Part shown: in pieces, positions 640 to 27,117 of the stretch
Numbering within the stretch: the first letter of the stretch is position 1
How the letters are laid out: each line of letters starts with the position of its first letter
Origin: Actinomycetota bacterium
GTDB taxonomy: Bacteria > Actinomycetota > Acidimicrobiia > Acidimicrobiales > AC-35
DNA length: 32,033 bases
NCBI GenBank assembly: GCA_005884125.1
Contig: VAXP01000131.1
Span: 3,786 to 35,818, forward strand
Direction of reading: 5' to 3'
The notes under the pieces: model-generated
Told to the model about the DNA's origin: nothing
Seen by the model: only the letters and a program-made list of their open reading frames with translations
The model's database searches: none
Position numbers and translations under genes: made by a program

Positions 640-643
640 TCAG
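623..643 (-). terminator. possible GC-rich hairpin at the end of the carboxyltransferase transcript
   Basis: CTGAC (623-627) and GTCAG (639-643) flank a GC-only centre and overlap the stop codon (642-640) of the Rieske-like gene. There is no T tract, so this would have to be a GC-hairpin type of terminator. The assignment is weak because such hairpins are common by chance at this GC content. Confidence 0.2.
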
Positions 644-1116
644 CGACGGGCTCCGCCCAAGTCGATCACCACGTGGCCGTGGGCGTCGACCGTGGCCGGG
701 AAGGACGTGAGGCCGGCGCCGTCGACCGGGTAGCTGCGCCCGTCGCATGGATCGCGAAAGTCGCGCCCCGCCGGCTCCCACCTCAGCTGGCACCGGCGCG
801 ACGCTCCGGGCGCGTGCGCTTCGAAGGCCAGCCATCCCTTGGTCGCGTCGGTGCCCAGGTGCTGCGCGTAGAGGTCGCGGTTGTGACGGAGGGGATCGGG
901 CAAAAGGATCGGACCGTCGCGGTCGACGGCGCGAGCGAGCACGCTGGCCCGTCCCATGTCATAGGGACCTCCACCGAAGGCGCCCTGCAGCTTGCCGCCG
1001 GGTTGGTTGGCCGAGCGCACGGCAAACACGACGATGAGGGCGGCGAAGACAACGCCGAGCAGGGCGGTGAGCAGCAGACCCGTCCTGCGCCCCCGCCCCC
1101 CGGGCCGGCGGCTCAT
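640..1116 (-). CDS. membrane-anchored Rieske-like protein lacking cluster histidines
   Basis: This 158-residue protein has a basic N-terminus, one hydrophobic segment at about residues 12-33 (likely N-in, C-out anchor) and a C-terminal part resembling the second half of a Rieske domain: C109-Q-L, then PCDGRSYPVDG with C124, then a strand pattern ending HVVIDLGG. In true Rieske proteins the ligands are CxH and CxxH. Here both cysteines are kept but the histidine positions hold Leu111 and Arg127, so a 2Fe-2S cluster is unlikely; the two Cys may form a disulfide. The start ATG (1116) overlaps the TGA of the upstream carboxyltransferase as ATGA, implying translational coupling. The Rieske relation is by eye from motif order and spacing; the function is unknown. 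Confidence 0.6.
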   Translation of the reverse strand: MSRRPGGRGRRTGLLLTALLGVVFAALIVVFAVRSANQPGGKLQGAFGGGPYDMGRASVLARAVDRDGPILLPDPLRHNRDLYAQHLGTDATKGWLAFEAHAPGASRRCQLRWEPAGRDFRDPCDGRSYPVDGAGLTSFPATVDAHGHVVIDLGGARR

Positions 1117-2576
1117 CGCAGGGCGCGGGCGGTGGCGGCGTCCACCCGGCGCAGGCGGTCCCCGGGACTGGCCTCGGCCAGCGCCGAGGCCACCGCCTCC
1201 GCCAGGGCACCGTCGTCCTCGGCCACGACCGCGTCGGCCACACCCAGCTCCACCTGGTCCCTCGCCGTCAGGCCCAGGCGCTGGGCCAGCTCGGGGGCTC
1301 GGCGGGCGTCGCGTTCCAGGATCGCCGCCGCTCCCTCCGGGGCGATGACGGAGAAGACGGCGTGCTCGAGCATCAGGAGGCGATCGGCGTGGGCCAGGGC
1401 CAGCGCCCCTCCGCTGCCCCCCTCCCCGACGCAGACGGCCACGCTCGCGGTCGGGAGACCGGCCATGGCCGCGAAGGTGCGGGCTATCTCTCTGGCTATC
1501 CCCTGGCCCTCCGCGTCCGGTCCGGGGTCGGCGCCCGGGGTGTCGATGAAGGTGACCAGGGGCAGCCCCAGGTGTCCGGCCAGGGCGATGGCCCGCTGGG
1601 CCAGCCGGTAGCCGGCGGGGCCCGGACGCCCCGATCCGGCGTGACGGTCGAGAGCCACGACGACGGCCCGTTGTCCGGCCACCGAGGCCAGACCCGCCCG
1701 CACGGTGGGGTCCGCGCCCCGAAGCTCCACCCACGAGGAGCACACCCCGGCGGCGCGATCTATCCCCGACGGTCGGTCGGGGGCGCGGGCCCGCAGCACC
1801 TCGGCCCACGCCGCGGTCGGTTCGGTTTCCTCCTCGGGTTCGGAGTCGGGAGCGCCGGCCGCCAGCTGCCTGCGGGCGAGAGGGAGGGCGCGGAGACCAA
1901 GGCAGGTCTCGATCCACGTCCCCTGCTCGGCCGCCGGCACCAGGGCGTCGACCAACCCGGCGGCGTAGGCGCTCTCGGCCGTGTGGGCACCCTCGGCCAG
2001 GCGCGTGCCCAGGGTCTGCTCGACGACCCGTGGCCCGGCGAAGCCCAGGGTGGCCCCGGGCTGGGCCGCGCACACGTCCACCAGCGACGCGTAGGACGCG
2101 TAGACCCCCCCGGTCGTGGGGGCCCGGTAGATCGCGACCGACAGCAGGCCGGCGGCGGCGTGGGCTCGGGCGGCCGAGGCGGTACGGGCCATCTGGACGA
2201 GCGAGACCATGCCCTCCTGCATGCGTGCGCCGCCCGAAGTAGTGATCACCACGACGGGCAGGCGCTGCCGCGTCGCCCGTTCGAAGGCCCGCACGACGCG
2301 CTCTCCGTGGACCGCCCCCATGGAGCCGCCCAGCACCTCGAAGCATCCCTCGATGAGCACGTAGTCGCTGGGGACGCCGTTGCCGGAGGACACGCCGTCG
2401 GGCGACACCACGTCGCCCACCCGGCACCGACCGGTCATCACCGACTCGGTGCACCCCTGGTCGGCTCGGGCCCGGGCCACGGCCCGGTCCAGAGCTTCCC
2501 GGTACCCAGGAAAGCGAAGGGGATCAGCCGAGGTCAGCTCGGCGTCCCACTCCTCCACCAGCGGGTGCAGGGGCAT
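1113..2576 (-). CDS. acyl-CoA carboxylase carboxyltransferase, fused beta and alpha (AccD-AccA type)
   Basis: The 487-residue protein joins two crotonase-like halves. The AccD-like half (about 1-255) carries [10 protein letters not shown] at 113-122 and the GGVYASYAS stretch. The AccA-like half (about 275-487) carries [20 protein letters not shown] and [12 protein letters not shown], the usual acyl-CoA oxyanion loops. Such proteins move the carboxyl group from carboxybiotin to acetyl- or propionyl-CoA in the cytoplasm. The N-terminal four-cysteine zinc ribbon of bacterial AccD is not visible. No biotin carboxylase or biotin carrier gene is in the window, so partners must be encoded elsewhere. 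It is divergent from the B12 mutase subunit and sucCD, which would fit propionyl-CoA as substrate, but acetyl-CoA cannot be excluded. The ATG at 2576 opens the long frame; the nearby ATG at 2583 is out of frame. Confidence 0.85.
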
Positions 2577-2630
2577 GGCTCATGGTGTTTAGCAGCACCT
2601 CCCGCTGGCGGGCCCGACAGGGTCAGGCCG

Positions 2631-2636
2631 TAGGAT
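2631..2636 (+). promoter_or_regulatory. -10 box TAGGAT for the B12-mutase/sucCD operon (near-leaderless)
   Basis: TAGGAT lies 8 bases before the GTG at 2645. Normal -10 to +1 spacing puts the transcript start within about two bases of the start codon. No clear -35 hexamer is seen. The box recurs at the same distance before several other genes here. Confidence 0.6.
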
Positions 2637-2644
2637 CACCGTCC

Positions 2645-3076
2645 GTGGAGCGGCCCTATCGCGTGGTGGTGGCCAAGCCGGGCCTGGATGGTCACGACCG
2701 GGGGGCCAAGGTGATCGCCCGCGCCCTGCGTGACGCCGGCTTCGAGGTCATATATACGGGCCTGCACCAGACTCCCGAGCAGGTGGTGGAGGCGGTGGTC
2801 CAGGAGGACGCCGACGCCCTGGGGCTCTCGCTGCTGTCGGGAGCCCACATGACGCTGGTGCCGAAGATCATCGAGCTGCTCCGCCGGCGCGGGGCGGGAG
2901 ACGTGCTGGTGGTGTGCGGCGGCATCATCCCCGACGCCGACATCCCCAAGCTCAAGGAGCTGGGCGTGGCCCAGGTCTTCACCCCCGGCGCCCCCTTGCC
3001 GGCCATCTCGGCCTGGCTACGGGAGGCGCTCGACGGCACGCAGGCGGGCGCAGGGACCGAGACGGGAGCGAGCTGA
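2645..3076 (+). CDS. acyl-CoA (methylmalonyl-CoA) mutase small subunit, B12-binding domain protein
   Basis: This stand-alone cobalamin-binding domain of 143 residues carries the DxHxxG motif at residues 15-20 (DGHDRG, with His17 the expected lower cobalt ligand), [11 protein letters not shown] and [11 protein letters not shown], the usual pattern of the methylmalonyl-CoA mutase C-terminal domain. Together with a separate catalytic subunit it would isomerise methylmalonyl-CoA to succinyl-CoA, or act on a related acyl-CoA. The catalytic large subunit is not in the window. GTG 2645 is preferred over an in-frame ATG at 2582 because the latter lies upstream of the promoter box and almost abuts the divergent gene. 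It is followed after one base by sucC, so its likely product, succinyl-CoA, is consumed by its own operon. Confidence 0.85.
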
Positions 3077-3077
3077 C

Positions 3078-4229
3078 GTGGACCTGTTCGAGTACCAGGG
3101 CAAGCAGTACTTCGCCCGCTTCGGCATCCCGGTGTCGCCGGGAGGAGTGGCCGACACCCCGGAAGAGGCGGTGGCCCGGGCCGACGAGGTCGGCTACCCG
3201 GTGGTGGTCAAGGCCCAGGTCCAGGTGGGTGGGCGAGGGAAGGCCGGAGGCATCAAGCTGGCCGCCGACGCGGCCGAGGTGCTCGCCCACGCCCGGGCCA
3301 TCCTGGGCATGGACATCCGCGGTCACATCGTGCGGCGCCTCTGGATCGAGCACGCGTCGGAGATCGCCCGTGAGTACTACGCCAGCTTCACGCTCGACCG
3401 GTCGGCGAAGCTGCACCTGGGCATGGTCTCGGCCCGGGGAGGCGTCGACATCGAGCAGGTCGCGGCCGAGGACCCCGACGCCATTGCCCGTCTCCACGTC
3501 GATCCGACCGAGGGCCTGACCAAGTCAGGTGGGAGACAGCTGGTGGAGCAGGCCGGGCTCGACCCCGAGGCCCGGGACGGGGCGGTCGACCTGCTGCTCA
3601 AGCTCTACAGCTGCTACGTCGACGGGGACGCCGACCTGGTCGAGGTCAACCCCCTCATCCTCACGCCCGAAGGTCGCGTGCACGCCCTCGACGCCAAGGT
3701 GACCCTGGACGACAGCGCTTCGTTCCGCCACCCGGAGTGGGACGAGTTCCGCACCCTGGAGGGGGACGACCCCAGGGAGACACTGGCCAAGCAGAAGGGC
3801 CTGCAGTATGTGGGCCTCGACGGTGAGGTCGGGATCATCGCCAACGGCGCCGGGCTGGCCATGAGCACCTGCGACGTCGTCAACCAGGTGGGCGGACAGC
3901 CGGCCAACTTCCTCGACATAGGCGGTGGCGCCAATGCCGAGGTGATGGCCAACGCCCTGGAGGTCATCAACACCGACGAGAAGGTGCGGTCGATATTCAT
4001 CAACGTCTTCGGAGGGATCACCCGCGGAGAAGAGGTGGCCAACGGCATCGTCCAGGCTCTCCAGCGCGTCGACATCGGTGCGCCCATCGTGATCCGCCTC
4101 GACGGCACCAACGCCGAACAAGGGCGAGAGATCCTCAAGGGGCTCGAGTCCGAGCGGTTCGTCTCGAGGCCCACGATGCTGGACGCAGCCCGCACGGCGG
4201 TGGCCCTGGCCGGGGGAGCACCCCGATGA
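3078..4229 (+). CDS. sucC: succinyl-CoA ligase (ADP-forming), beta subunit
   Basis: The 383-residue protein starts [19 protein letters not shown], the classic SucC N-terminus. It continues with an ATP-grasp domain ([16 protein letters not shown] at about 43-58; acidic Mg-binding region DLVEVNPL) and a C-terminal ligase-CoA domain ([35 protein letters not shown]). With SucD it converts succinyl-CoA, ADP and phosphate to succinate, CoA and ATP in the TCA cycle. Length matches the bacterial family. The GTG start lies one base after the stop of the mutase subunit, and the end overlaps sucD as ATGA, so the three genes form one operon. Confidence 0.96.
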
Positions 4230-5113
4230 GCATCTTCGTAGATGAGACGACCAAGGTCGTGATCCAGGGTCTGAGCCCGACGAGCCAGGGCTTCTTCCAC
4301 GGCATGCGCAACCGCGCCTACGGCACCAAGGTGGTGGCGGGCACCAATCCCAAGAGAGGCGGGACCGAGATCGAGGGGGTCCCCGTGTTCGCCACGGTCA
4401 AGGAGGCTGTGGAGGCGACGGGCGCCAACGCCGCCTTCAACTCCGTGCCTCCCCCATTCGCGGCCGACGCCGTCATCGAGGCGGCCGAAGCCGGCGTCCC
4501 CTTCATCGTCTGCATCACCGAGGGCATCCCCGCCCACGACGAGGCCCGGGCCTACAACCGCCTCAAGCGGGACTTCTCCGCCAGCCGCCTGCTCGGACCC
4601 AACTGTCCTGGGATCATCAGCCCCGGGAGGTGCAACATCGGGATCACCGCGGGTGAGATAGCCAAGCCCGGAGGGCCGGTCGGCATCGTGTCGCGGTCGG
4701 GGACGCTCACCTACCAGGCGCTCTACGAGCTCAAGCAGAAGGGGATCGGCGTCACCACCTGCGTGGGCATAGGCGGAGATCCGGTGCCCGGGACCAGCTT
4801 CATCGACTGCCTGGCCGAGTTCCAGGCCGATCCCGAGACGAAGGCGGTGATCATGATCGGCGAGATCGGCGGCTCGGCCGAGGAGGAAGCGGCGGCCTAC
4901 ATCGCCGAGCACGTGGACAAGCCGGTGGTGGCCTACGTGGCGGGGGTGACGGCGCCTCCCGGCAAGAGGATGGGCCACGCCGGCGCCATCGTCTCGGGCT
5001 CGAAGGGGACGGCCAAGGCCAAGATGGAGGCTCTCGCCGCGGCCGGGGCAACCGTGGCCGTGAACCCGACCGAGGCCGGGGAGCTCATGGCGGGGATGGT
5101 CGCCTCGCTGTAG
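4226..5113 (+). CDS. sucD: succinyl-CoA ligase, alpha subunit
   Basis: The 295-residue protein has an N-terminal CoA-binding Rossmann domain ([15 protein letters not shown] at about 11-25; GTNPKRGG) and a C-terminal ligase domain with [13 protein letters not shown], in which His251 is the expected phosphohistidine. It forms the alpha half of the succinyl-CoA ligase heterodimer. The ATG at 4226 overlaps the sucC stop by four bases, giving tight stoichiometric coupling. The gene ends only 7 bases before the 3' end of the convergent ABC permease gene, so the two transcripts probably share a termination zone. The length is normal. Confidence 0.96.
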
Positions 5114-15370: not shown

Positions 15371-16252
15371 ATGGTCAGGATCGGCGAGCTGCTCGCCGCC
15401 GGGAGGACACTGTCCTTCGAGTTCTTTCCTCCCGGGACGGAGGAGGCCGAGCGCACCCTCGAGAAGACGCTGATCGAGCTCGAGCCCCTGGCCCCGTCCT
15501 TCGTGTCGGTCACCTACGGCGCGGGTGGGTCGACGCGCGACAAGACGCGCCAGATCGTCGTCCACATCGCCAGGGACACCTCGATGACGCCCATGCCGCA
15601 TCTCACCTGCGTGGGGCAGAGCAGGTCCGAGGTCGTGGAGATCGTGCGCCGGTACCGCGAGCTGGGCCTGGTGAACATCCTGGCCCTGGCCGGCGACCCC
15701 CCGAAGGGGGAGGGCGAAGGGCCCTCCGACTTCCGCTACGCCATGGAGCTCATCGAGCTGGTGCGCTCGCTCGGTGACTTCTCGGTGGGGGTGGCAGCCC
15801 ACCCCGAGCTCCATCCCCGCTCTCCGGACCGCGAGAGCGACAGGCGCCACCTGGCGGCCAAGCTGCGGGAGGCGGACTTCGCCATCACCCAGTTCTTCTT
15901 CAAGGCCGAGGTGTACCTCGCCATGCTCGACGAGCTGGCCGCCCTGCGGGTGGACAAGCCCGTGATCCCGGGGGTGATCCCGGTGACCAACGTCAACCAG
16001 GTCGAGCGCTTCGCCCGCCTGGCGGGAGCCGAGTTCCCCCCCGACCTGGCCCAGCGCCTCTACCAGGTCGGCGACCGCCCCGAGGAGGTCCGCCGCATCG
16101 GGGTGGAGGTGGCGACCGGGTTGACGGCCGAGCTCCTGGACGCGGGCGCCCCCGGTGTCCACTTCTACACGCTCAACTCCTCCCGGGCGACCAGGGAGAT
16201 CGCCGCCAATCTGGGCCTCGGTCCCCCGGGCCGTTCACCGAACGGACGGTAG
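15371..16252 (+). CDS. metF: methylenetetrahydrofolate reductase
   Basis: The 293-residue TIM-barrel flavoprotein has [14 protein letters not shown] near the N-terminus (Glu being the general acid in the family), [43 protein letters not shown], a mid-barrel [13 protein letters not shown] and [10 protein letters not shown] at the C-terminus. It reduces 5,10-methylene-THF to 5-methyl-THF, feeding methionine synthesis. It starts 15 bases after folD without a clear Shine-Dalgarno and is the last gene of the one-carbon operon. The last codons overlap an inverted repeat just upstream of the icd promoter box. Confidence 0.94.
16231..16245. promoter_or_regulatory. inverted repeat just upstream of the icd -10 box
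   Basis: CCGTT (16231-16235), a 5-base centre and AACGG (16241-16245) form a perfect 5-bp dyad at the very end of metF, five bases before TAGGCT. It could be an operator in the -35/-10 spacer of icd or a weak attenuating hairpin for metF; there is no T tract. Confidence 0.3.
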
Positions 16253-16255
16253 GCT
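16250..16255 (+). promoter_or_regulatory. -10 box TAGGCT for icd, near-leaderless
   Basis: TAGGCT begins within the metF stop codon (TAG, 16250-16252) and is 8 bases from ATG 16264, the same spacing as at 2631 and 7710. Confidence 0.55.
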
Positions 16256-16263
16256 CCACTTCC

Positions 16264-17460
<1,197 letters not shown>

Positions 17461-17470
17461 ACATCGCGGA

Positions 17471-18625
17471 GTGAGCCTGACCGTGTCGAAGCGCGCCGTG
17501 ACCGCCGCGGGTGCGGCTCTGGCCCTGGCCCTGGCGGCCACGGGCTGCTCGGGAAGCTCGCACCGCCGCCCGGCATCCGCCGCCCTGACGCCGACCAGCT
17601 CGACGACCTCCACGTCGCTCAGCCCCACCTCGACCGCGGGTCCCACGACGACGGCCGTGCCCGCGTCGCTCGCCGCCACCGGCGCTCCCGTCCCGCCGCC
17701 TCCCGATCGGGGCGCCACCCCCGCGGTGGCGCCGGGCGGAAGCGTGGCCCTGGGTGTGCGGCCGACCCGCATCGTCCTGGCCTGGCCCGAGGCCTTCGTC
17801 CTCGGGGAGGCCACCGCCGGCCACTTCGACGTGGCCCGGGTCGACCTCCCCACCCTGGCCGTTGGGGCCCGGGTCACCCTCGCGGGCACGCCGGTGGGCG
17901 CCGGCGTCTCCACCGGCGGCCTCTACGTCGTGGCCGGGGGGGCGGGGGGAGCCACGTCCACCCTGTCCCGCCTCGACCCGACCAGCCTGGCCGTGCAGAC
18001 CCAGGTCGCCCTGGCCGGCCGGGGCAGCCAGGTGGTGGCCAGGACCGACGGCGTCTACGTGGCGCCGGGGACGACGCTCGAGCGCCGCGACCCGGTGACC
18101 CTGGCCGCCCGCGCCTCGCTGCCCATGCCTGCCCACGACGACGCCCCCGACCTGGCCGCCGACCCCAGGGCCACCACCTTGTGGGTCGTCCTGCCGGCGA
18201 CGGACCCCCCCCTGACGCTGGTCGAGGTGGACCTGGGGGCCTTCCGGGTCCTTCGCTCGCGGCGGGACCTGGGCGGCGTGCGGGGCGGGTCGGTGTCGGC
18301 CGTCCTCGACGGGGTGTGGGTGGGCTTCCCGACCGGTACCCAGAGCACGGCCGTGAAGATCAGGGCGACCGACGGGACCACGGTGGCCACCTTCCAGGGC
18401 GCCATGCCCAACTCCGCCGCGTACACCGTCTCCGGCTCCCGCCTGTGGTTCTCGGGGGGCCGGGCCGCCGGGCTCGGGTGCGCCGACGTGACCACCGGGG
18501 CCGTGGCCGGGACGAGCCAGGTGGCCCCCGAGGCCTCGCCCTTCGTCGCCGACACCCACGTGGCCGTGCTCGGTGACCCGGCCGGGGCGGTGCGCCTCCT
18601 CGTCCCCACCGACGCCTGTCGATGA
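17471..18625 (+). CDS. secreted lipoprotein with propeller-like repeats, unknown function
   Basis: The 384-residue protein has a basic N-terminus, a hydrophobic stretch and the lipobox LAATGC with Cys26 as the predicted lipidated residue. A Ser/Thr/Pro-rich linker follows (about 27-80), typical of surface lipoproteins. The rest contains recurring short strand patterns (GGLYVVAGG, DGVYVAPGT, TTLWVVLPA, DGVWVGFPT, SRLWFSGGR) about 40-50 residues apart, suggesting a beta-propeller of the YVTN/WD-like class. No catalytic motif is recognised. Sitting between icd and mdh it has no obvious metabolic link. GTG 17471 is taken because it places a normal signal sequence before the lipobox. Confidence 0.75.
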   Translation: MSLTVSKRAVTAAGAALALALAATGCSGSSHRRPASAALTPTSSTTSTSLSPTSTAGPTTTAVPASLAATGAPVPPPPDRGATPAVAPGGSVALGVRPTRIVLAWPEAFVLGEATAGHFDVARVDLPTLAVGARVTLAGTPVGAGVSTGGLYVVAGGAGGATSTLSRLDPTSLAVQTQVALAGRGSQVVARTDGVYVAPGTTLERRDPVTLAARASLPMPAHDDAPDLAADPRATTLWVVLPATDPPLTLVEVDLGAFRVLRSRRDLGGVRGGSVSAVLDGVWVGFPTGTQSTAVKIRATDGTTVATFQGAMPNSAAYTVSGSRLWFSGGRAAGLGCADVTTGAVAGTSQVAPEASPFVADTHVAVLGDPAGAVRLLVPTDACR

Positions 18626-18648
18626 GGCTGGGTGCCGCGTCGCGGCGG

Positions 18649-18654
18649 TAGCGT
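18649..18654 (+). promoter_or_regulatory. -10 box TAGCGT for mdh, leaderless
   Basis: TAGCGT ends 7 bases before ATG 18662, placing +1 at or next to the start codon. It also argues against an in-frame upstream start at 18632. Confidence 0.55.
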
Positions 18655-18661
18655 GACGCCC

Positions 18662-19657
18662 ATGGCCACCACATCGACGCGGCCCGTCCACGTGACCGTG
18701 ACCGGGGCTGCGGGCCAGATCGGCTACGCCCTGCTGTTCCGCATCGCCTCGGGCCAGCTGCTGGGGCCCGATCAGCCCATGGTGCTGCGCCTGCTCGAGA
18801 TCGAGCCGGCCATGAAGGCGCTGGAGGGCGTGGTCATGGAGCTCGACGACTGCGCCTTTCCTCTCCTCGACGACATCGAGCCCACCTCCGATCTGAAGAC
18901 GGCATTCGACGGAACGTCATGGGCCCTGCTGGTGGGGTCCGTCCCCCGCAGGGCGGGCATGGAGCGGCGGGACCTGCTCACGATCAACGGGGGCATCTTC
19001 AAGCCCCAGGGTCAGGCCATCGCCGCCAACGCGGCCGCCGACGTGCGGGTGCTGGTGGTGGGCAACCCCTGCAACACCAACTGCCTGATCGCCCGCAACA
19101 ACGCCCCCGACCTGCCCGACACGCGCTGGTTCGCCATGACCCGCCTGGACCAGAACCGGGCCACGTCCCAGCTGGCCATGAAGGCGGGCGTCCCCGTCAC
19201 CGACGTGACCAACGTGGCCATTTGGGGCAACCACTCCACCACCCAGTTCCCCGACTTCGCCCACGCGCGCATCCAGGGCCGGCCCGCCCCCAAGGTGATC
19301 AAGGACACCGAGTGGCTGAGGGGACCGTTCCTCGAGACGGTGCAGAGGCGGGGCGCGGCCGTCATCGAGGCCCGGGGCGCCTCGTCGGCGGCCTCGGCCG
19401 CCAGCGCCGTCATCGACTCCGTGGTCAGCGTGCGCACGCCCACCGGACCCAAGGGCTGGACGTCGCTGGCCGTGGTCAGCCGCGGTCAGTACGGGGTCCC
19501 GGAGGGGCTGGTGTTCGGTTACCCGGTGCGCTCGAAGAAGAAGTCCTGGGACGTGGTCGAGGGCATCGAGCACGACGACTTCGCCAAGGAGAAGCTGCGC
19601 GTCACGACCGAGGAGCTGCTGGCCGAGCGCAAGGAGGTGGCCGACCTGCTGGGCTGA
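18662..19657 (+). CDS. mdh: malate dehydrogenase
   Basis: The 331-residue Rossmann dehydrogenase has [20 protein letters not shown] at about residues 14-33, [15 protein letters not shown] (substrate loop arginines), [18 protein letters not shown] and [14 protein letters not shown], in which His191 is the catalytic base. The glycine-rich loop and the acidic end of strand 2 (LLEIEPA) fit the cytosolic-type, NAD-using MDH found in actinobacteria. It oxidises malate to oxaloacetate in the TCA cycle. ATG 18662 is chosen over 18632 because of the promoter box and the family N-terminus. It is monocistronic, ending at a convergent gene. Confidence 0.95.
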
Positions 19658-19686
19658 GGCCCGCCCAGCGGGGCCGGCCCGCCTTT
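19658..19686. terminator. possible GC-rich hairpin zone between convergent mdh and a small gene
   Basis: GGCCC (19658-19662) can pair with GGGCC (19671-19675), and the perfect palindrome GGGCCGGCCC spans 19671-19680, followed by GCCTTT. This is the most terminator-like stretch after mdh, but the T tract is only three bases. Confidence 0.3.
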
Positions 19687-19691
19687 CAGGA

Positions 19692-19910
19692 TCAGGCCTG
19701 GGCGGCGACGGCTACCTCGACCCCGAGGCGGCGGAGATAGGCGAGCTTGCGTTCGATGGCCTGGCGCCAGGCCGTCAGGTCGGCGTTGAAGCGGTCCCGG
19801 TCGCCATCCTCGAACGCGTGCTCCAGCTCATCAAAGGCTGCGTCTTCCGCGTCGAGAAGCTCCCGGTACCGCTGGAGGACGTGCTCGTCGATCACCTCTG
19901 CCAGCGTCAC
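19692..19910 (-). CDS. small acidic helical protein, unknown
   Basis: The 72-residue protein is rich in Asp, Glu and Arg and reads as two long amphipathic helices (residues about 5-35 and 38-62), with no Cys, membrane segment or known motif. It could be a small coiled-coil or adaptor-like protein. The GTG start at 19910 has GAAGGGGG about 7 bases upstream, one of the few good ribosome-binding sites here, and TAGATT farther upstream (19964-19959) could be its -10. It is divergent from the DUF2087 gene. That support makes it likely real despite its size; I do not recognise its family. Confidence 0.55.
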   Translation of the reverse strand: MTLAEVIDEHVLQRYRELLDAEDAAFDELEHAFEDGDRDRFNADLTAWRQAIERKLAYLRRLGVEVAVAAQA

Positions 19911-19958
19911 ATGGCCCCCTTCCCATGGTCGCGACCCGCGTTCGCGCTCGTACCAGGA

Positions 19959-19968
19959 AATCTACCGT
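19959..19968. promoter_or_regulatory. back-to-back overlapping -10 boxes for divergent genes
   Basis: AATCTACCGT contains TACCGT on the plus strand (19963-19968), 6 bases before GTG 19975, and TAGATT on the minus strand (19964-19959), about 48 bases before GTG 19910. The two boxes share the central TA, so RNA polymerase could serve only one direction at a time. Confidence 0.4.
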
Positions 19969-19974
19969 GTCGGA

Positions 19975-20259
19975 GTGGACGCCTCCATGCCCGAGCAGGC
20001 CGAGGTCCTGCGCCGGTTCCTCGAGCACGGGCGCCTGCGGTCGATGCCGGCCCGCCGGGCCAAGCGCAGGATGGTGCTCGACTACCTGGCCGGGCACTTC
20101 GAGCCCGGGCGGACCTACACGGAGGCGGAGGTGAACGGCATCCTGGCCCGCTTCCATCCCGACGTGGCCTCCCTGCGCCGCTACCTGGTCGACGAGGAGT
20201 TCCTCGAGCGCCGGGAGGGCTCGTACTGGCGGGCGGGAGGCACCTTCCACGTGGACTGA
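19975..20259 (+). CDS. DUF2087-domain protein
   Basis: The 94-residue protein has LRRFLEHGRLRSMPARRAKRRMVLDYLAGHF, YTEAEVNGILARFHPDVASLRRYLVDEEFLERREGSYWR: the layout of DUF2087, a small winged-helix-like domain often found alone or fused to transcriptional regulators. A nucleic-acid-linked role is suggested by the basic first helix pair but is not shown. GTG 19975 is preferred because TACCGT lies 6 bases before it, as in other leaderless starts here; ATG 19987, four codons later, is the alternative. The gene ends 29 bases before the convergent poly-gamma-glutamate hydrolase gene. Confidence 0.8.
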   Translation: MDASMPEQAEVLRRFLEHGRLRSMPARRAKRRMVLDYLAGHFEPGRTYTEAEVNGILARFHPDVASLRRYLVDEEFLERREGSYWRAGGTFHVD

Positions 20260-20261
20260 AG

Positions 20262-20278
20262 GCCCCCGGGGGCGGGCC
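20262..20278. terminator. GC palindrome between convergent genes
   Basis: GCCCCCGGGGGC (20262-20273) is a perfect 12-base palindrome. Alternatively GGCCC (20261-20265) pairs with GGGCC (20274-20278). It sits in the 29-base gap between two convergent stops, suggesting a bidirectional GC-hairpin terminator without a T tract. Confidence 0.3.
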
Positions 20279-20288
20279 GAGGCGGGGC

Positions 20289-20894
20289 TCAGGCCGCAGC
20301 CCAGTCCACGGCCCCCCGGGCCAGGGCCTCGACCAGGGCGGTTGTGGGCGGGGCCAGCCCCGGCCCTTCCCACGAGGCCCACACCGGTCCCAGGCCCCGC
20401 ACCCGGGGGGGCAGCTCGAGCTGGACTCCCCCCCGGCGGGCCCGGTTGACGGGGTTGTCCGGGTGCATGCCCCGCAGGCGTCCAGGGATGTCGGCCATAT
20501 CCGTGACCACCTGGTAGTCGGGCAGGGCCAGGCTCAGGCGGCGGCCCAGGTCCCGGGCCAGGGCCCGGTTGCCTCCCCCGAGGAGCAGGTCCGTCCAGCG
20601 CCCGTGGCGGCCGTAGCCGTGCAGGGCCACGACCACCTCCACGTGGTCGAGGAAGGCGGCCAGGGCGGGCGAGGCCGCGGGGTCGAACTCGTGGGAGGGC
20701 AGGTGCCAGCGCAGGCGGGGAGGCTGGACGACCGCGTACAGGGAGGCGCCCGCGGCCCGGGCCGCGGCCCGGGCGATGGTGTCCGTCACCCGCTCGAGCG
20801 AGCCGCCGTGGATGGCGAGGAAGCCGACCGAGGAGCCGAGGACCAGCTCCTCGGTGACGTCCTGCTCGTCCAGGAGCTGGGCCAGCCGGCTCAC
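20289..20894 (-). CDS. poly-gamma-glutamate hydrolase family protein
   Basis: The 201-residue protein has LAIHGGSLERVTDTIARAAA (His29), HLPSHEFDP (His68-Glu69) and VVALHGYGR (His92). This matches the zinc-binding plan of the poly-gamma-glutamate hydrolase / phage-replication-related family (PF05908, DUF867), where HGG-x2-E, a central H/E pair and a later HG bind zinc. Phage members cut capsule poly-gamma-glutamate; the job of chromosomal copies is poorly known. No signal peptide is visible. The GTG start at 20894 overlaps the stop of the upstream VOC gene (GTGA), so the two are co-translated. No phage genes surround it. Confidence 0.75.
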   Translation of the reverse strand: MSRLAQLLDEQDVTEELVLGSSVGFLAIHGGSLERVTDTIARAAARAAGASLYAVVQPPRLRWHLPSHEFDPAASPALAAFLDHVEVVVALHGYGRHGRWTDLLLGGGNRALARDLGRRLSLALPDYQVVTDMADIPGRLRGMHPDNPVNRARRGGVQLELPPRVRGLGPVWASWEGPGLAPPTTALVEALARGAVDWAAA

Positions 20895-21274
20895 TGCCGG
20901 CGCCGGAGGGGGTGGTCCTCCGGCACCTCCACCACCACGATCGGGACGCCGTCCGGGTCGGCCAGCCACATCTCCCGCAGCCCCCAGGGTTCGTCGGTCG
21001 GCGGTCGCGTCACCTCGACCCCTTTGCCCACCAGGTCCCTGTAGGTGGCGTCGACGTCCCGGACCTGGAGCCACAGCCGCAGCTTGTCACCGCCCGGCGC
21101 GTCCGAGCGTCCGGCCACCTCCAGGAAGCCCCCACCCAGGAAGTACACGACGCCCCGCGACCGACCCTGGCCGTACTCCCGGTAGACGGCGAGCGAGAGC
21201 AGCTCGCCGTAGAAGTGGCGCGAGCGTTCTGGGTCGGTGGGCCGCAGCAGCACGCGGCTCGACAGCACGTCCAT
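20891..21274 (-). CDS. VOC-family (glyoxalase/dioxygenase fold) protein
   Basis: The 127-residue protein shows two beta-alpha-beta-beta-beta modules: SSRVLLRPTDPERSRHFYGELLSLAVYREY, then LWLQVRDVDATYRDLVGKGVEVTRPP, ending in EMWLADPDGVPIVVVEVPEDHP. The metal-binding residues expected in active glyoxalases are only partly recognisable (the terminal Glu is present), so it may be an enzyme, a resistance-type binding protein or a substrate sensor. The start is uncertain: ATG 21274 gives the longest form, but TAGGCA (21279-21274) overlaps it, which fits better with GTG 21268. It is coupled to the poly-gamma-glutamate hydrolase gene. Confidence 0.8.
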   Translation of the reverse strand: MDVLSSRVLLRPTDPERSRHFYGELLSLAVYREYGQGRSRGVVYFLGGGFLEVAGRSDAPGGDKLRLWLQVRDVDATYRDLVGKGVEVTRPPTDEPWGLREMWLADPDGVPIVVVEVPEDHPLRRRQ

Positions 21275-21279
21275 GCCTA
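21274..21279 (-). promoter_or_regulatory. candidate -10 box TAGGCA for the VOC gene
   Basis: On the minus strand CGTAGGCA resembles the other boxes and lies 5 bases before GTG 21268, while it overlaps ATG 21274. If real, translation starts at 21268 rather than 21274. Confidence 0.3.
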
Positions 21280-21296
21280 CGACCGCGGGCCCGGCC

Positions 21297-22064
21297 TCAG
21301 AACAGGCAACGGTCGAGGCCGTTCACCCGGCTGAAGAGCTGGATGCGGAGGTCCACCACGTTGGCTCGCGAACCCAGAGACGAGGCCCGGCCGTCGCCGG
21401 CGCGCAGCGACGCGGCGAGGTCGTTGGCCACGACGGTGTACTGATCCCATCCCGACAGCCATTGCTCGACCGCGGGACGGTCCCGGTCCTGGACCGGGAT
21501 GAGGCGCAGCTGGGAGGCCAGCACGCCGAGCGCCGAGCCCAGCCGGTCGATGCGGGCCGCCCGCTCGGCCGGGCCCAGCCGCACCGGCCGGCGCTCCCGG
21601 CGGAGGGGATCGAGGGCGGCCGAGCAGGCGCCGTCGGCCGAGCGCACGAAGGCGGCGTCGGAGATCCGGGCCACCCGGGCCGCGCGGCCCACGGTCAGAA
21701 GGGTGCCGAGCAGGGCGGCCGCGGCCAGGGCCGCGGCCGAGGCCAGGGCCAGCCTGCGAGCCCGGCGCAGGGCCGCCAACCCGCCGCCCCGGACCCCGGG
21801 TCCCGGGGCCATGGGCGCCGACCCCGCCGCCGCCGCCGATCCCGGCGCAGCCGCCGATCCCGCTGCTGCCGTCGACCCCGGGGGAGCCGACCCCGGGGGT
21901 CCGGGCTGCCCCGGCCCCCGAGCCGGGGCCGGCAGCGCCGTCCCCGCCCACCCCGGCACCGGTCGCCAGCGGCTCGTCCAGCGCCGGCCGTCCCAGTAGC
22001 GCAGGGCCGAGGCGTGGCGGCGGTCGGCGTACCAGGCGGGGGGCTGGACCGATGGACGGCGCAC
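21297..22064 (-). CDS. DUF2510 membrane protein with Gly-Ser-Ala-Pro linker
   Basis: The 255-residue protein begins with a DUF2510-type motif (PPAWYADRRHASALRYWDGRRWT at about 8-30: W-Y, R-YWDG, W-T). A Gly/Ser/Ala/Pro linker of hexapeptide repeats follows (about 50-95), then one transmembrane segment at about 104-125 and an external helical domain of some 130 residues containing two cysteines (DGACSAAL and the penultimate RCLF). The architecture, with cytoplasmic DUF2510, linker, anchor and outer domain, is common among actinobacterial cell-envelope proteins of unknown role. GTG 22064 starts two bases after the stop of the 386-residue gene, so the two are an operon. Confidence 0.75.
   Translation of the reverse strand: MRRPSVQPPAWYADRRHASALRYWDGRRWTSRWRPVPGWAGTALPAPARGPGQPGPPGSAPPGSTAAAGSAAAPGSAAAAGSAPMAPGPGVRGGGLAALRRARRLALASAAALAAAALLGTLLTVGRAARVARISDAAFVRSADGACSAALDPLRRERRPVRLGPAERAARIDRLGSALGVLASQLRLIPVQDRDRPAVEQWLSGWDQYTVVANDLAASLRAGDGRASSLGSRANVVDLRIQLFSRVNGLDRCLF
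21817..21895. repeat. 18-base tandem repeat in the linker of the DUF2510 gene
   Basis: The 10-mer G(C/T)CGA(C/T)CCCG or a close form begins at 21817, 21835, 21853, 21871 and 21886, that is with periods 18, 18, 18 and 15. On the coding (minus) strand it specifies GS-xxxx hexapeptides. It is likely length-variable between strains. Confidence 0.6.
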
Positions 22065-22066
22065 CG

Positions 22067-23227
22067 TCAGCCCCCGCCCTCGGTCCCCGGGTCCGCGAAC
22101 GGCGCGTAGTAGGAGGGCTCGTCGGGATCGGGGCCGGCGTTGGTGCCCTCGACGGGCTCGAGCATGTCGAACACGGGTCCCGCGGTGGCCTTGGGCACGG
22201 TCCAGTCCAGCTCCGCCCCGGCGGCCTGGGCGAAGGGGCGCAGGAAGGTGAAGTACACGTAGGCGCCGCAGGTGATCTTCTCCCTGCGGGACATGGCGGC
22301 CACGTCGCGGTAGAGCTGGGCCTGGGCCGTGCGCACCTCGGCCACCACGGCGTCGAGCTCGTCGAGGGGCACGGGGCGCAGCGAGCCGTCGGGCGTGTCC
22401 GTGGTGAACAGGGAGAAGCCCACCAAGTGGTCGAGGTAGTTCTCGGGTGTGGTGACGCTGGTTCCCCAGTCGTTCACCTTCAAGCTCACGTCCTGCAGGA
22501 CGAGGCCCGCGGTCAGGTTCCGGTAGGGGACGTCCTTGGCCACGTGCGACCACCACAGGTCGCTCGGGCCCAGCCGGTAGAAGTCGCGCACCAGCAGGAC
22601 GCGGCCGCCGGGCAGCTGGTAGGGGCCCGTGTCACCGGTGCCCACCCTGGTGTCGAAGTAGAGCAGGAACAGGTAGGTCATGAGCGACGCGCTGAAGCGC
22701 TTCACCACCAGGGGGTCGACCCCGCCGTCGCCCACCGGCTCGACCCCGTCCACCAGGGTGGCGATGGTCGCCCGGTCGTAGGGCCGCACGGTGAAGCCCG
22801 CGTCCCAGGCCTGGCGGTGGCCGTCGCCCCGAAAGGCCAGCGCGGCCCGCTCCCAGAAGTCGAGCACCCGCCAGGTGCGCTCGGGCGGGTCCTCCACCAG
22901 CTGGAAGGTGGTGAGGAACTTGCGGCCGATGAGGTAGAAGTTCGGCACCGACCACAGGTAGACGGGATTGACCTGGGACCCCGGCCGCCGGCCCGACAGC
23001 CCGATCTCCTCGGCCGGGAGGCGGGCCTCGATGGCCTCGATCATCTCGGGGTAGCGGAACCACGCCTCGCAGCAGGCCACCAGGATGTACGCCGTCACCG
23101 GGATCAGCCCCGACTCCAGCGACGTGCGCTCGGCGGTCATGGCCCGGGAGATCTGGGCGTGGTAGTGGACGAGGCGGTTGGCCTCCTCCCGGATGCCTTC
23201 GGCGCCGAGGTCGGTGCGGGCGGCCAC
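22067..23227 (-). CDS. conserved-looking protein of unknown function (386 residues)
   Basis: I do not recognise this protein. It is a well-behaved globular sequence with no signal peptide. It has a mixed hydrophobic/aromatic core (LIPVTAYILVACCEAWFRYPEM, VYLWSVPNFYLIGRKFLTTF, FSASLMTYLFLLYFDTRVG) and several Trp/Tyr/Phe-rich loops (RDFYRLGPSDLWWSHV, CGAYVYFTFLRPFA). No nucleotide-binding loop, metal triad or PEP-type ATP-grasp motif is visible. The stretches at about 45-60 and 195-215 are hydrophobic but broken by charges, so membrane association rather than clear spans is possible. The GTG start at 23227 is divergent, 52 bases from the PEP-swivelling gene, and the downstream partner is the DUF2510 gene. 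The shared control region is the main hint that it belongs with its neighbours. Confidence 0.75.
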   Translation of the reverse strand: MAARTDLGAEGIREEANRLVHYHAQISRAMTAERTSLESGLIPVTAYILVACCEAWFRYPEMIEAIEARLPAEEIGLSGRRPGSQVNPVYLWSVPNFYLIGRKFLTTFQLVEDPPERTWRVLDFWERAALAFRGDGHRQAWDAGFTVRPYDRATIATLVDGVEPVGDGGVDPLVVKRFSASLMTYLFLLYFDTRVGTGDTGPYQLPGGRVLLVRDFYRLGPSDLWWSHVAKDVPYRNLTAGLVLQDVSLKVNDWGTSVTTPENYLDHLVGFSLFTTDTPDGSLRPVPLDELDAVVAEVRTAQAQLYRDVAAMSRREKITCGAYVYFTFLRPFAQAAGAELDWTVPKATAGPVFDMLEPVEGTNAGPDPDEPSYYAPFADPGTEGGG

Positions 23228-23266
23228 GCCAAGACTTCAGCGCCGCGGCCGGCGCAGCGCAAGCCG

Positions 23267-23272
23267 TACCAT
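23267..23272 (+). promoter_or_regulatory. -10 box TACCAT for the swivelling-domain gene
   Basis: TACCAT is followed by 7 bases and GTG 23280. It sets the start of the small gene, since the frame is open well upstream. Confidence 0.5.
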
Positions 23273-23279
23273 CGCCGGG

Positions 23280-23636
23280 GTGCGGGAGCTGGGGAGGGGG
23301 ACCAAGGTCTTCGACCACGCCCCGGTGGGGGGCGCCTGGCGGGTGCTCGAGGGTCCCGAGGACGTCCTCGGCCTCATGGACGCCGGTGGCGGTACGGGGG
23401 TGGTGGCCGTGGTCAGGGACGCAGGCGCCACGTTTCTCGCCCCCCTCTATCACGAGCTGACCGCGGTGGTGTGCACGAGCGGCACGCCGCGGAGCCACAT
23501 AGGCATCGTCAGCCGGGAGTTCCAGCTCCCGTGCGTCGTCGCCGCCGTCTTCCCCGGCGGGGAGCCGGGCCCGGGCACGGAGGTGGAGGTGGACTGCTCG
23601 GGCCCCGACGGGGTCATCCGTGCCCCAGCCGGCTGA
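23280..23636 (+). CDS. stand-alone PEP-utiliser swivelling (phosphohistidine) domain protein
   Basis: This small protein of 118 residues has a single domain: a beta-rich N-terminal half (VVAVVRDAGATFLAPLYHEL) leading to SGTPRSHIGIVSREFQLPCVV at about 67-87. This corresponds to the G-x-x-S-H-x-x-I-V-x-R-E-x-x-(I/L)-P signature of the PEP-utilising enzyme mobile domain, with His73 as the likely phospho-carrier. In PPDK, PEP synthase or rifampicin phosphotransferase this domain swings between an ATP-grasp and a second catalytic domain; neither is fused or adjacent here, so a partner in trans would be needed. GTG 23280 is chosen from the promoter box. The next gene overlaps by 17 bases. Confidence 0.75.
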   Translation: MRELGRGTKVFDHAPVGGAWRVLEGPEDVLGLMDAGGGTGVVAVVRDAGATFLAPLYHELTAVVCTSGTPRSHIGIVSREFQLPCVVAAVFPGGEPGPGTEVEVDCSGPDGVIRAPAG

Positions 23637-24441
23637 GGAGGGCCGGCAGCGGTCCGGCCCCGGGCCGTGGTGGATCGAGTGGTGGGAGCTGGTCTTCTGG
23701 GCCCAGGACTCCTCGCTGGCCGGATCCGTGCGCCTCACCCTGGTCCCCGGTGCCCAGCGGGCCTGGTACTGGGCCGACCTGGTGGGCGCGGGGCGGCCCC
23801 TGGTGGCGGCACGCGACGACGAGGTGGATCTGCCCAGGGGCCGGGCGCTGGAGGTCAGGGCCGAGGGACTGTGGTCGGTCCTGACCTGCGAGACGCCGCT
23901 CGAGCACTGGTCGGTCGGGCTGGAGGCGTTCGCGGTGGCACTGGACGACCCCGACGAGGCGCTGGGGCAGGCCCGGGGCGACCGCCTGCCCATGGGGCTC
24001 GACCTGGAGTGGGAGGCGGACGCCCCGGCCCGGGACACGGATCCCCTGGGCCTCCGGGCCGGCGGGAGGCGCTACGAGCAGCCCGCCCTGGTGCACGGCG
24101 AGGTCCTGATCGGGAGCGAGCGGGTGGCGCTGGAGTGCCCGGGATGGCGGGTGCGGGGCTGGGGGCAGGCGGACTGGAGCTCGTCCTGGAGCTGGGCGGC
24201 GTCCCGCCTCCATCGGGCCCCGGGCCCGTCGCGGGGCGAGGGGGCCGTGGTCGAGGCGGTGGGGCGGGCGCCCGTCGAGGTCCGGGACCCCGGCTCGGAG
24301 ACAGGGGGCCGGGACGCGGCCGTGCTCGGGCGCCTGGAGAGGTCGCTGTGCCGGGTGGGCCGGGGCGACGGGGACGAGGAACCGGGGTGGAGCGAGTCCT
24401 ACCGGCCCGCGGGGCCGATCAGGCTCGACCGTTCCCGGTGA
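23620..24441 (+). CDS. AttH/CrtC-like lipocalin-type protein
   Basis: The 273-residue, Trp-rich protein has an N-terminal strand-rich half ([36 protein letters not shown]), then [51 protein letters not shown] and [13 protein letters not shown]. The last resembles the G-x-R-x-HSWG-x-RDW element of the hydroxyneurosporene-synthase/AttH lipocalin-like superfamily, linked to carotenoid, lipid or terpenoid ligands. No catalytic residues can be named. The GTG start lies inside the end of the swivelling-domain gene (17-base overlap), implying co-expression. The 3' end overlaps convergent sdhB by 23 bases. The family call is by motif order only. Confidence 0.6.
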
Positions 24442-25173
24442 GGACGGCCGATCGGGCCAGGTCGCGGTTGAGGAAGGCGATGGTGTCCATGCCGATCTCC
24501 TTGGGGCACACCGCCGCGCACTCCCCGATGTTGGTGCAGTGCCCGAAGCCCAGCCCGTCCATGGTCTCGACCATGGCCTTGACCCGGCCCTTTCGCTCGG
24601 GCTGACCCTGGGGCAGGACACCGAGGTGGACGACCTTGGCCGCGGTGAAGAGCATGGCCGAGGCGTTGGGGCAGGCCGCCACGCACGCCCCGCAGCCGAT
24701 GCAGGCGGCCGCGTCCATGGCCGAGTCCGCGTCCTGCTTGGGGACGGCGATGTTGTTGGCCTCGGGGGCGCTCCCCGTCGACGCGCTGATGAACCCGCCG
24801 GCCGCGATTATCCGATCGAAGGCGCTGCGGTCGACGATCAGGTCGCGCACCACCGGGAAGGCGCCCGCCCTCCACGGCTCGATGGTGAGGGAATCCCCGT
24901 CGCGGAAGTGGCGCATGTGGAGCTGGCACACCGTCGTGGCCCGCTCGGGGCCGTGGGCGATGCCGTTGATCATGAACCCGCACATCCCGCAGATGCCCTC
25001 GCGGCAGTCGTGGTCGAAGGCGATGGGCTCGTCGCCGCCGAGGATGAGACCTTCGTTGACGACGTCGAGCATCTCGAGGAACGACATGTCCGGGCTTATC
25101 CCGCCGGCCTGGTAGCGCACGATGCGGCCTTGGTCGCCGGCATGGCGCTGCCGCCAGACGTCGAGGGTGAGGT

Positions 25174-25177
<4 letters not shown>
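24419..25177 (-). CDS. sdhB: succinate dehydrogenase iron-sulfur subunit
   Basis: The 252-residue protein carries all three cluster motifs. The plant-ferredoxin type 2Fe-2S uses Cys58, 63, 66 and 84 (CREGICGMC and TTVCQLHM). The 4Fe-4S set is [12 protein letters not shown] (Cys159, 162, 165, 169). The 3Fe-4S set is [12 protein letters not shown] (Cys214, 220, 224), with no extra Cys that would make it 4Fe-4S. It shuttles electrons from SdhA FAD to the membrane quinone site. [10 protein letters not shown] is the wording of the group with a single five-helix SdhC. The GTG start overlaps the sdhA stop (GTGA). Confidence 0.95.

Positions 25178-27117
<1,940 letters not shown>

Follow-up and report, generated by a model that had tools for sequence, protein, structure and literature searches.

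The DNA stretch analysed here, referred to as the window, comprises 32,033 nucleotides. Near its beginning it carries a small gene of a conserved family on the minus strand, followed by a carboxyltransferase gene on the same strand and by a B12-domain gene, sucC and sucD on the plus strand. The features of the locus are as follows:

640..1116, minus strand: gene encoding a membrane-anchored protein of 158 aa with a predicted cluster-free Rieske fold (ORF list and relatives)
1009..1077, minus strand: predicted N-terminal membrane helix, residues 14-36 (AF2 model and hydropathy/charge script)
661..966, minus strand: predicted Rieske-fold domain, residues 51-152 (AF2 model, Foldseek, VIA and hhalign)
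790..792, minus strand: Cys109, equivalent of the disulfide cysteine of the HLGC motif (hmmsearch, MAFFT and hhalign alignments)
745..747, minus strand: Cys124, equivalent of the second, disulfide cysteine of the CPCH motif (the same alignments)
1113..1116, minus strand: ATGA shared by the stop codon of accDA and the start of the family gene (sequence read)
1113..2576, minus strand: accDA, a fused AccD-AccA carboxyltransferase of 487 aa, a lineage-specific neighbour (profile matches)
2582..3076, plus strand: B12-binding C-terminal domain of methylmalonyl-CoA mutase as a separate gene immediately ahead of sucC (in 17 of 41 loci)
3078..4229, plus strand: sucC, the conserved divergent neighbour (in 40 of 41 loci)
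4226..5113, plus strand: sucD (profile match)

The gene at 640-1116 starts with ATG on the minus strand. The two cysteine motifs quoted in the initial annotation, C109-x-Leu and C124-x2-Arg, are present in its product as C109-Q-L111 and C124-D-G-R127, and both cysteine codons read TGC on this strand. The ATGA overlap with the carboxyltransferase gene was also described correctly: the upstream stop codon and the start of the gene share 1113-1116. The protein on its own gave no Pfam match even at E 10, no match to an NCBIfam model (it was the only member scanned there) and no useful match in a sequence search of the PDB. A one-sequence scan of genome contigs returned 417 pattern matches and no relatives among them, and a search at the level of the taxonomic family returned the window's own genome only.

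Relatives were found at the level of the class. In a single-sequence search, 59 of 247 genomes of the class had a match at E <= 0.01; the weakest matches were only partly checked. A profile of 45 sequences matched in 120 of 395 class genomes; in 10 of these the sole match is an ordinary Rieske protein with intact CxH and CPCH motifs, leaving at most 110, some of them with partial matches. The profile survey undercounts the family: genome G002 has the gene (L070) but gave no match, with only nine of its sixty first-look candidates scored. The recurrence of matches in class genomes in both searches shows that the gene is not a chance ORF. Within a sample of the phylum, 27 of 396 genomes gave matches and 20 of them are in the class; the seven outside it are four ligand-bearing Rieske proteins and three proteins that match in the N-terminal part only. 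One genome (G153) has two copies of the gene close together, at L057 3424-3789 and 6781-7254, one of them partial.

The titles of 44 named loci fall mostly within the class. Twenty-five are titled Acidimicrobiia, Acidimicrobiales or Acidimicrobiaceae, and four carry the names Microthrix, Microthrixaceae or Ferrithrix, which the taxonomy, consulted at the level of the family or a species, assigns to Acidimicrobiia. The other 15 titles comprise eight generic actinobacterial names, three entries called 'bacterium', two Bifidobacterium breve, one Acidobacteria and one Candidatus Aldehydirespirator; these off-class or generic titles are perhaps binning labels. By its record titles, the family belongs to the class Acidimicrobiia. 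No title or abstract opening in the open-access literature was found to describe it.

A Rieske-like domain had been proposed for the protein in the initial annotation, and structure prediction overlaid on known Rieske domains agrees with this proposal. The AF2 model, computed with the 45-sequence alignment of the family, has a mean pLDDT of 83.6 and a pTM of 0.66; over residues 51-150 the pLDDT of ten-residue blocks is 94-98, except for 86 at residues 71-80. The best Foldseek match in the PDB, and the only one reaching E 0.001, is the Rieske protein PetC3 (5cxm, E 1e-3). The best 50 of 250 Foldseek matches are Rieske-type proteins, Rieske oxygenases, NirD, arsenite oxidase and chains of bc1/b6f complexes or respiratory supercomplexes. 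Re-examination of Foldseek's own matches with VIA-align gave Z 10.9 for both 9rk4 (rmsd 2.3, 93 aligned) and 5cxm (rmsd 2.2, 91 aligned), 10.0 for arsenite oxidase 1g8j, and 9.6 and 8.8 for the NirD structures 4aiv (rmsd 3.8, 99 aligned) and 2jo6. For the divergent member L101, Rieske ferredoxins are the best eight matches of the structure model, weakly so, at E 0.07 to 0.39.

Profile comparisons point in the same direction. When the PDB was searched with the family profile by hmmsearch, the first ten of 24 matches were Rieske proteins, the best at E 7.4e-4 and the other nine at 0.015-0.25. Unrelated proteins, mainly peptide deformylases, appeared from E 0.57 on, and only the first match lies at E <= 0.001. 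An hhalign comparison of the family with a set of ten Rieske proteins that carry the ligands, including one encoded in the genome of the window, gave a probability of 97.3% and E 2.2e-11. The Rieske model of Pfam matched none of the 45 family members. Taken from sequence profiles and from the predicted model, the domain of the window protein is judged homologous to ligand-bearing Rieske proteins, and a Rieske fold combined with loss of the cluster ligands is highly probable.

The identity of the two remaining cysteines was assessed by alignment. In a Rieske protein encoded in the same genome (L176), the two loops read CVHLGC...FECPCHGS. Five hmmsearch alignments, MAFFT and hhalign all align C109 to the HLGC cysteine (or its GC equivalent) and C124 to the second cysteine of CPCH; the three methods draw on overlapping sets of family sequences and are not fully independent. 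On these alignments, C109 and C124 are the Rieske disulfide pair and not ligand cysteines. The initial annotation read the motifs as a CxH/CxxH arrangement with both histidines replaced and both cysteines kept. The first half of this reading stands and the second does not, as the kept cysteines are those of the disulfide and the ligand cysteines are gone. A protein that has retained its ligand cysteines and lost only the histidines is thus ruled out by the placement of C109 and C124 in all three methods.

The family was counted in 96 sequences, reduced to 89 (window included) by removal of near-duplicates. Both disulfide cysteines are present in 87 of the 89; the two exceptions are L009, where a cysteine lies a few residues earlier, and L020, whose reading frame is interrupted close to its end in the assembly. 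No cysteine lies between the two in any sequence, and none precedes C109 within the domain in 88 of 89. The two are 15 residues apart in the window protein, the same distance as between C65 and C80 of arsenite oxidase; this spacing is found in 51 of the 87 two-cysteine members, and a further 23 have 14. From the position of the cysteines, C109 and C124 likely form a disulfide. None of the four cluster ligands is kept in 84 of the 89 sequences, and one of four, the second histidine, in the remaining five, all of which belong to other orders of the class. The initial annotation had suggested surveying orthologues for loss of the histidines, and the loss of both extends to these 84. The ligand columns of the window protein are occupied by A, S, D and D; its first loop is two residues longer than that of Rieske proteins, which makes the two ligand columns there less certain in the MAFFT alignment. 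Since the same loss is seen in the relatives, sequencing error is ruled out as its cause.

Such a uniform loss of ligands could in principle mark a protein with a genuine Rieske fold that is decaying and has no function. The open reading frame, the invariant residues and a position maintained across many families of the class argue against a decaying remnant, which we consider scarcely credible. The former cluster site might also have been turned to binding a small ligand or a different metal. H86 occurs in 77 of the 89 members, as does W95, and the histidine at the second-His position in five could belong to such a site. However, no conserved set of histidines and cysteines is left at the two loops, and the 12 members without H86, which all come from other orders of the class, are also those without W95. 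A new site of this kind is therefore quite unlikely.

The N-terminal membrane anchor named in the initial annotation is borne out by the model, in which residues 14-36 form a helix, and by a simple hydropathy and charge script run over the 89 sequences. The script predicts a membrane helix for 88 of them, the 89th (L057b) being a partial copy, and 77 of the 89 show an N-in charge pattern. From this N-in prediction it follows that the Rieske-fold domain probably lies outside the membrane, where a disulfide would form. The arginine pair of the window protein fits a loose Tat pattern, as do five others of the 89 (the pattern was applied to family sequences only). In Tat-defective Corynebacterium, misassembly of the Rieske protein QcrA is described as a major cause of the growth defect (PMC4383559). 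The rarity of the Tat pattern in the family (6 of 89) fits export without a cofactor but does not prove it.

This topology bears on a further alternative, in which the C109-C124 disulfide would form or break according to the redox state of the envelope and thereby signal or switch binding. The joint retention of the two cysteines in nearly all members, with no other cysteine between or, in 88 of 89, ahead of them in the domain, would suit such a sensor, as would a compartment that is probably oxidising, given the predicted topology. Against it, the equivalent disulfide of Rieske proteins is described without a signalling role in the relevant part of PMC3758308, and the approximately 13 residues before the helix leave no room for a cytoplasmic output domain. 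A redox sensor is accordingly regarded as improbable.

The pairing with the carboxyltransferase gene, which had been found odd in the initial annotation, is not a property of the family. In the upstream ORF, residues 8-217 match AccD and residues 255-464 match AccA, and both halves score below the curated equivalog cut-offs. The pairing was surveyed in 41 loci, namely the window and 40 of the 58 other genomes matched by the single-sequence search. It occurs in two of them, the window and L039, which group as sisters in the sucC tree (97/92) and share the ATGA overlap, and in none of the 44 named loci. An accDA gene at E <= 1e-30 was found in four of the 41 genomes carrying the family. A conserved partnership with the carboxyltransferase is ruled out by these counts. 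The two sister loci and the four genomes with accDA imply that the link is a local insertion, and the coupling probably only sets expression in the window genome. The membrane localisation of the enzyme suggested in the initial annotation therefore cannot be the job of the family. A role of the protein in tethering or regulating AccDA at the membrane would be favoured by the translational coupling in the window and L039. It is opposed by the rarity of the gene pair and of accDA in these loci and genomes and by the topology, which would place the folded domain and the enzyme on opposite sides of the membrane, and it is considered highly unlikely.

The conserved neighbour is sucC, which encodes a subunit of succinyl-CoA ligase and is found upstream in divergent orientation in 40 of the 41 loci. 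Where no B12-domain gene lies between them, the family gene and sucC are separated by a median of 124 bases, and by fewer than 200 in 20 of 23 loci; the other three gaps are longer, the largest being 3,995. Of the 17 loci that have a B12-domain gene, 13 have the family gene within 73 bases of it and four have it farther away. Ten of eleven weak matches from other orders also adjoin a divergent sucC by their coordinates, while a search of the remaining one (G191) detected no sucC. Of the 44 named loci, which partly come from the same genomes, 33 have a divergent sucC, four were untestable, and seven have none upstream (L080, L081, L084, L088, L089, L090 and L094). This absence is weak for L094 and L080, which have only 303 and 1,015 bases of upstream sequence, and L081 has a B12-domain gene in place of sucC. 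The link to sucC is thus widespread, yet not universal.

Several other genes were observed in these neighbourhoods. An ORF for an FtsX/MacB-like ABC permease precedes the family gene in the same direction at L088 2302-6342 and L090 3214-6432 (the Pfam match was obtained for the L088 copy only), and in L088 the family gene is convergent with an ORF that resembles a UvrD helicase by eye. In several same-order genomes without a family match, the ORF divergent upstream of sucC resembles, by eye, a GDP-mannose dehydratase (L131) or a UbiA-like membrane protein (L132, L133, L135, L140 and L147). The window has more central-carbon genes at 15371-27117: a metF-like gene just under the cut-off, NADP isocitrate dehydrogenase, malate dehydrogenase and the succinate dehydrogenase flavoprotein.

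We propose that the family consists of anchored, cluster-free Rieske-fold ectodomains that retain the disulfide and have a non-redox structural or binding role; this overall explanation is favoured with moderate confidence. The single N-terminal helix would anchor the protein, and the Rieske beta-fold would probably face the exterior of the membrane. With all four ligands lost, the domain would hold no [2Fe-2S] cluster and carry no electrons through one. The kept cysteine pair, which in Rieske proteins normally forms the disulfide linking the two loops that bind the cluster, would provide a structural disulfide outside the cell. The ectodomain would probably be an accessory piece of an envelope complex. 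For the role of the domain taken by itself, a structural or protein-binding function is, in our estimate, somewhat better than an even prospect. Of the rivals, redox sensing carries the most weight, followed by a new metal or ligand site and then by a link to AccDA. A broader view of the family as a class-wide natural 'apo-Rieske' protein is tentative and rather doubtful. Such a protein would have given up electron transfer and taken on a new task outside the cytoplasm, for example as a subunit of the envelope or of a respiratory complex, and a shared divergent promoter region would co-regulate it with succinyl-CoA ligase.

Three known groups of Rieske-fold proteins can be compared with the family. 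PetC and QcrA of bc1/b6f complexes are anchored in the membrane by their N-terminus, as is the Acidimicrobiia family. They have in common with it the fold, the disulfide cysteine pair, the W/F positions near the loops and the pattern of C-terminal strands; the family differs in its replaced cluster ligands, lacks the segment of the GPAP region and is not matched by the Pfam Rieske model PF00355. The small subunit of NirD/NasE-type nitrite reductases also has a Rieske fold, as reflected in the Z scores of 4aiv and 2jo6. NirD is a soluble cytoplasmic enzyme subunit, whereas the family has a membrane anchor in 88 of 89 sequences, the disulfide pair and a sucCD neighbourhood.

Accounts of the Rieske disulfide usually treat it as an aid to the cluster. 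The retention of the cysteine pair in a large family that has dropped the ligands suggests that the disulfide can act as a principal stabiliser of the fold; the Acidimicrobiia family offers a natural protein for testing this role. The small subunit of arsenite oxidase, AioB, shares the fold (1g8j) and the 15-residue cysteine spacing; its C65-C80 disulfide joins two loops, and AioB keeps its cluster and partners a molybdenum enzyme (PMC3758308). The same source describes the Rieske disulfide as a connection between loops and a shield of the cluster. A fold can now be given to an unannotated conserved gene beside a core TCA-cycle operon of Acidimicrobiia. In Bacillus bataviensis, NirD is described as having a Rieske fold with substituted cluster ligands (PMC3475470), and the substituted-ligand Rieske fold is therefore a known kind. 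What is new here is an anchored family that spans a class, with near-complete loss of the ligands and a retained disulfide pair.
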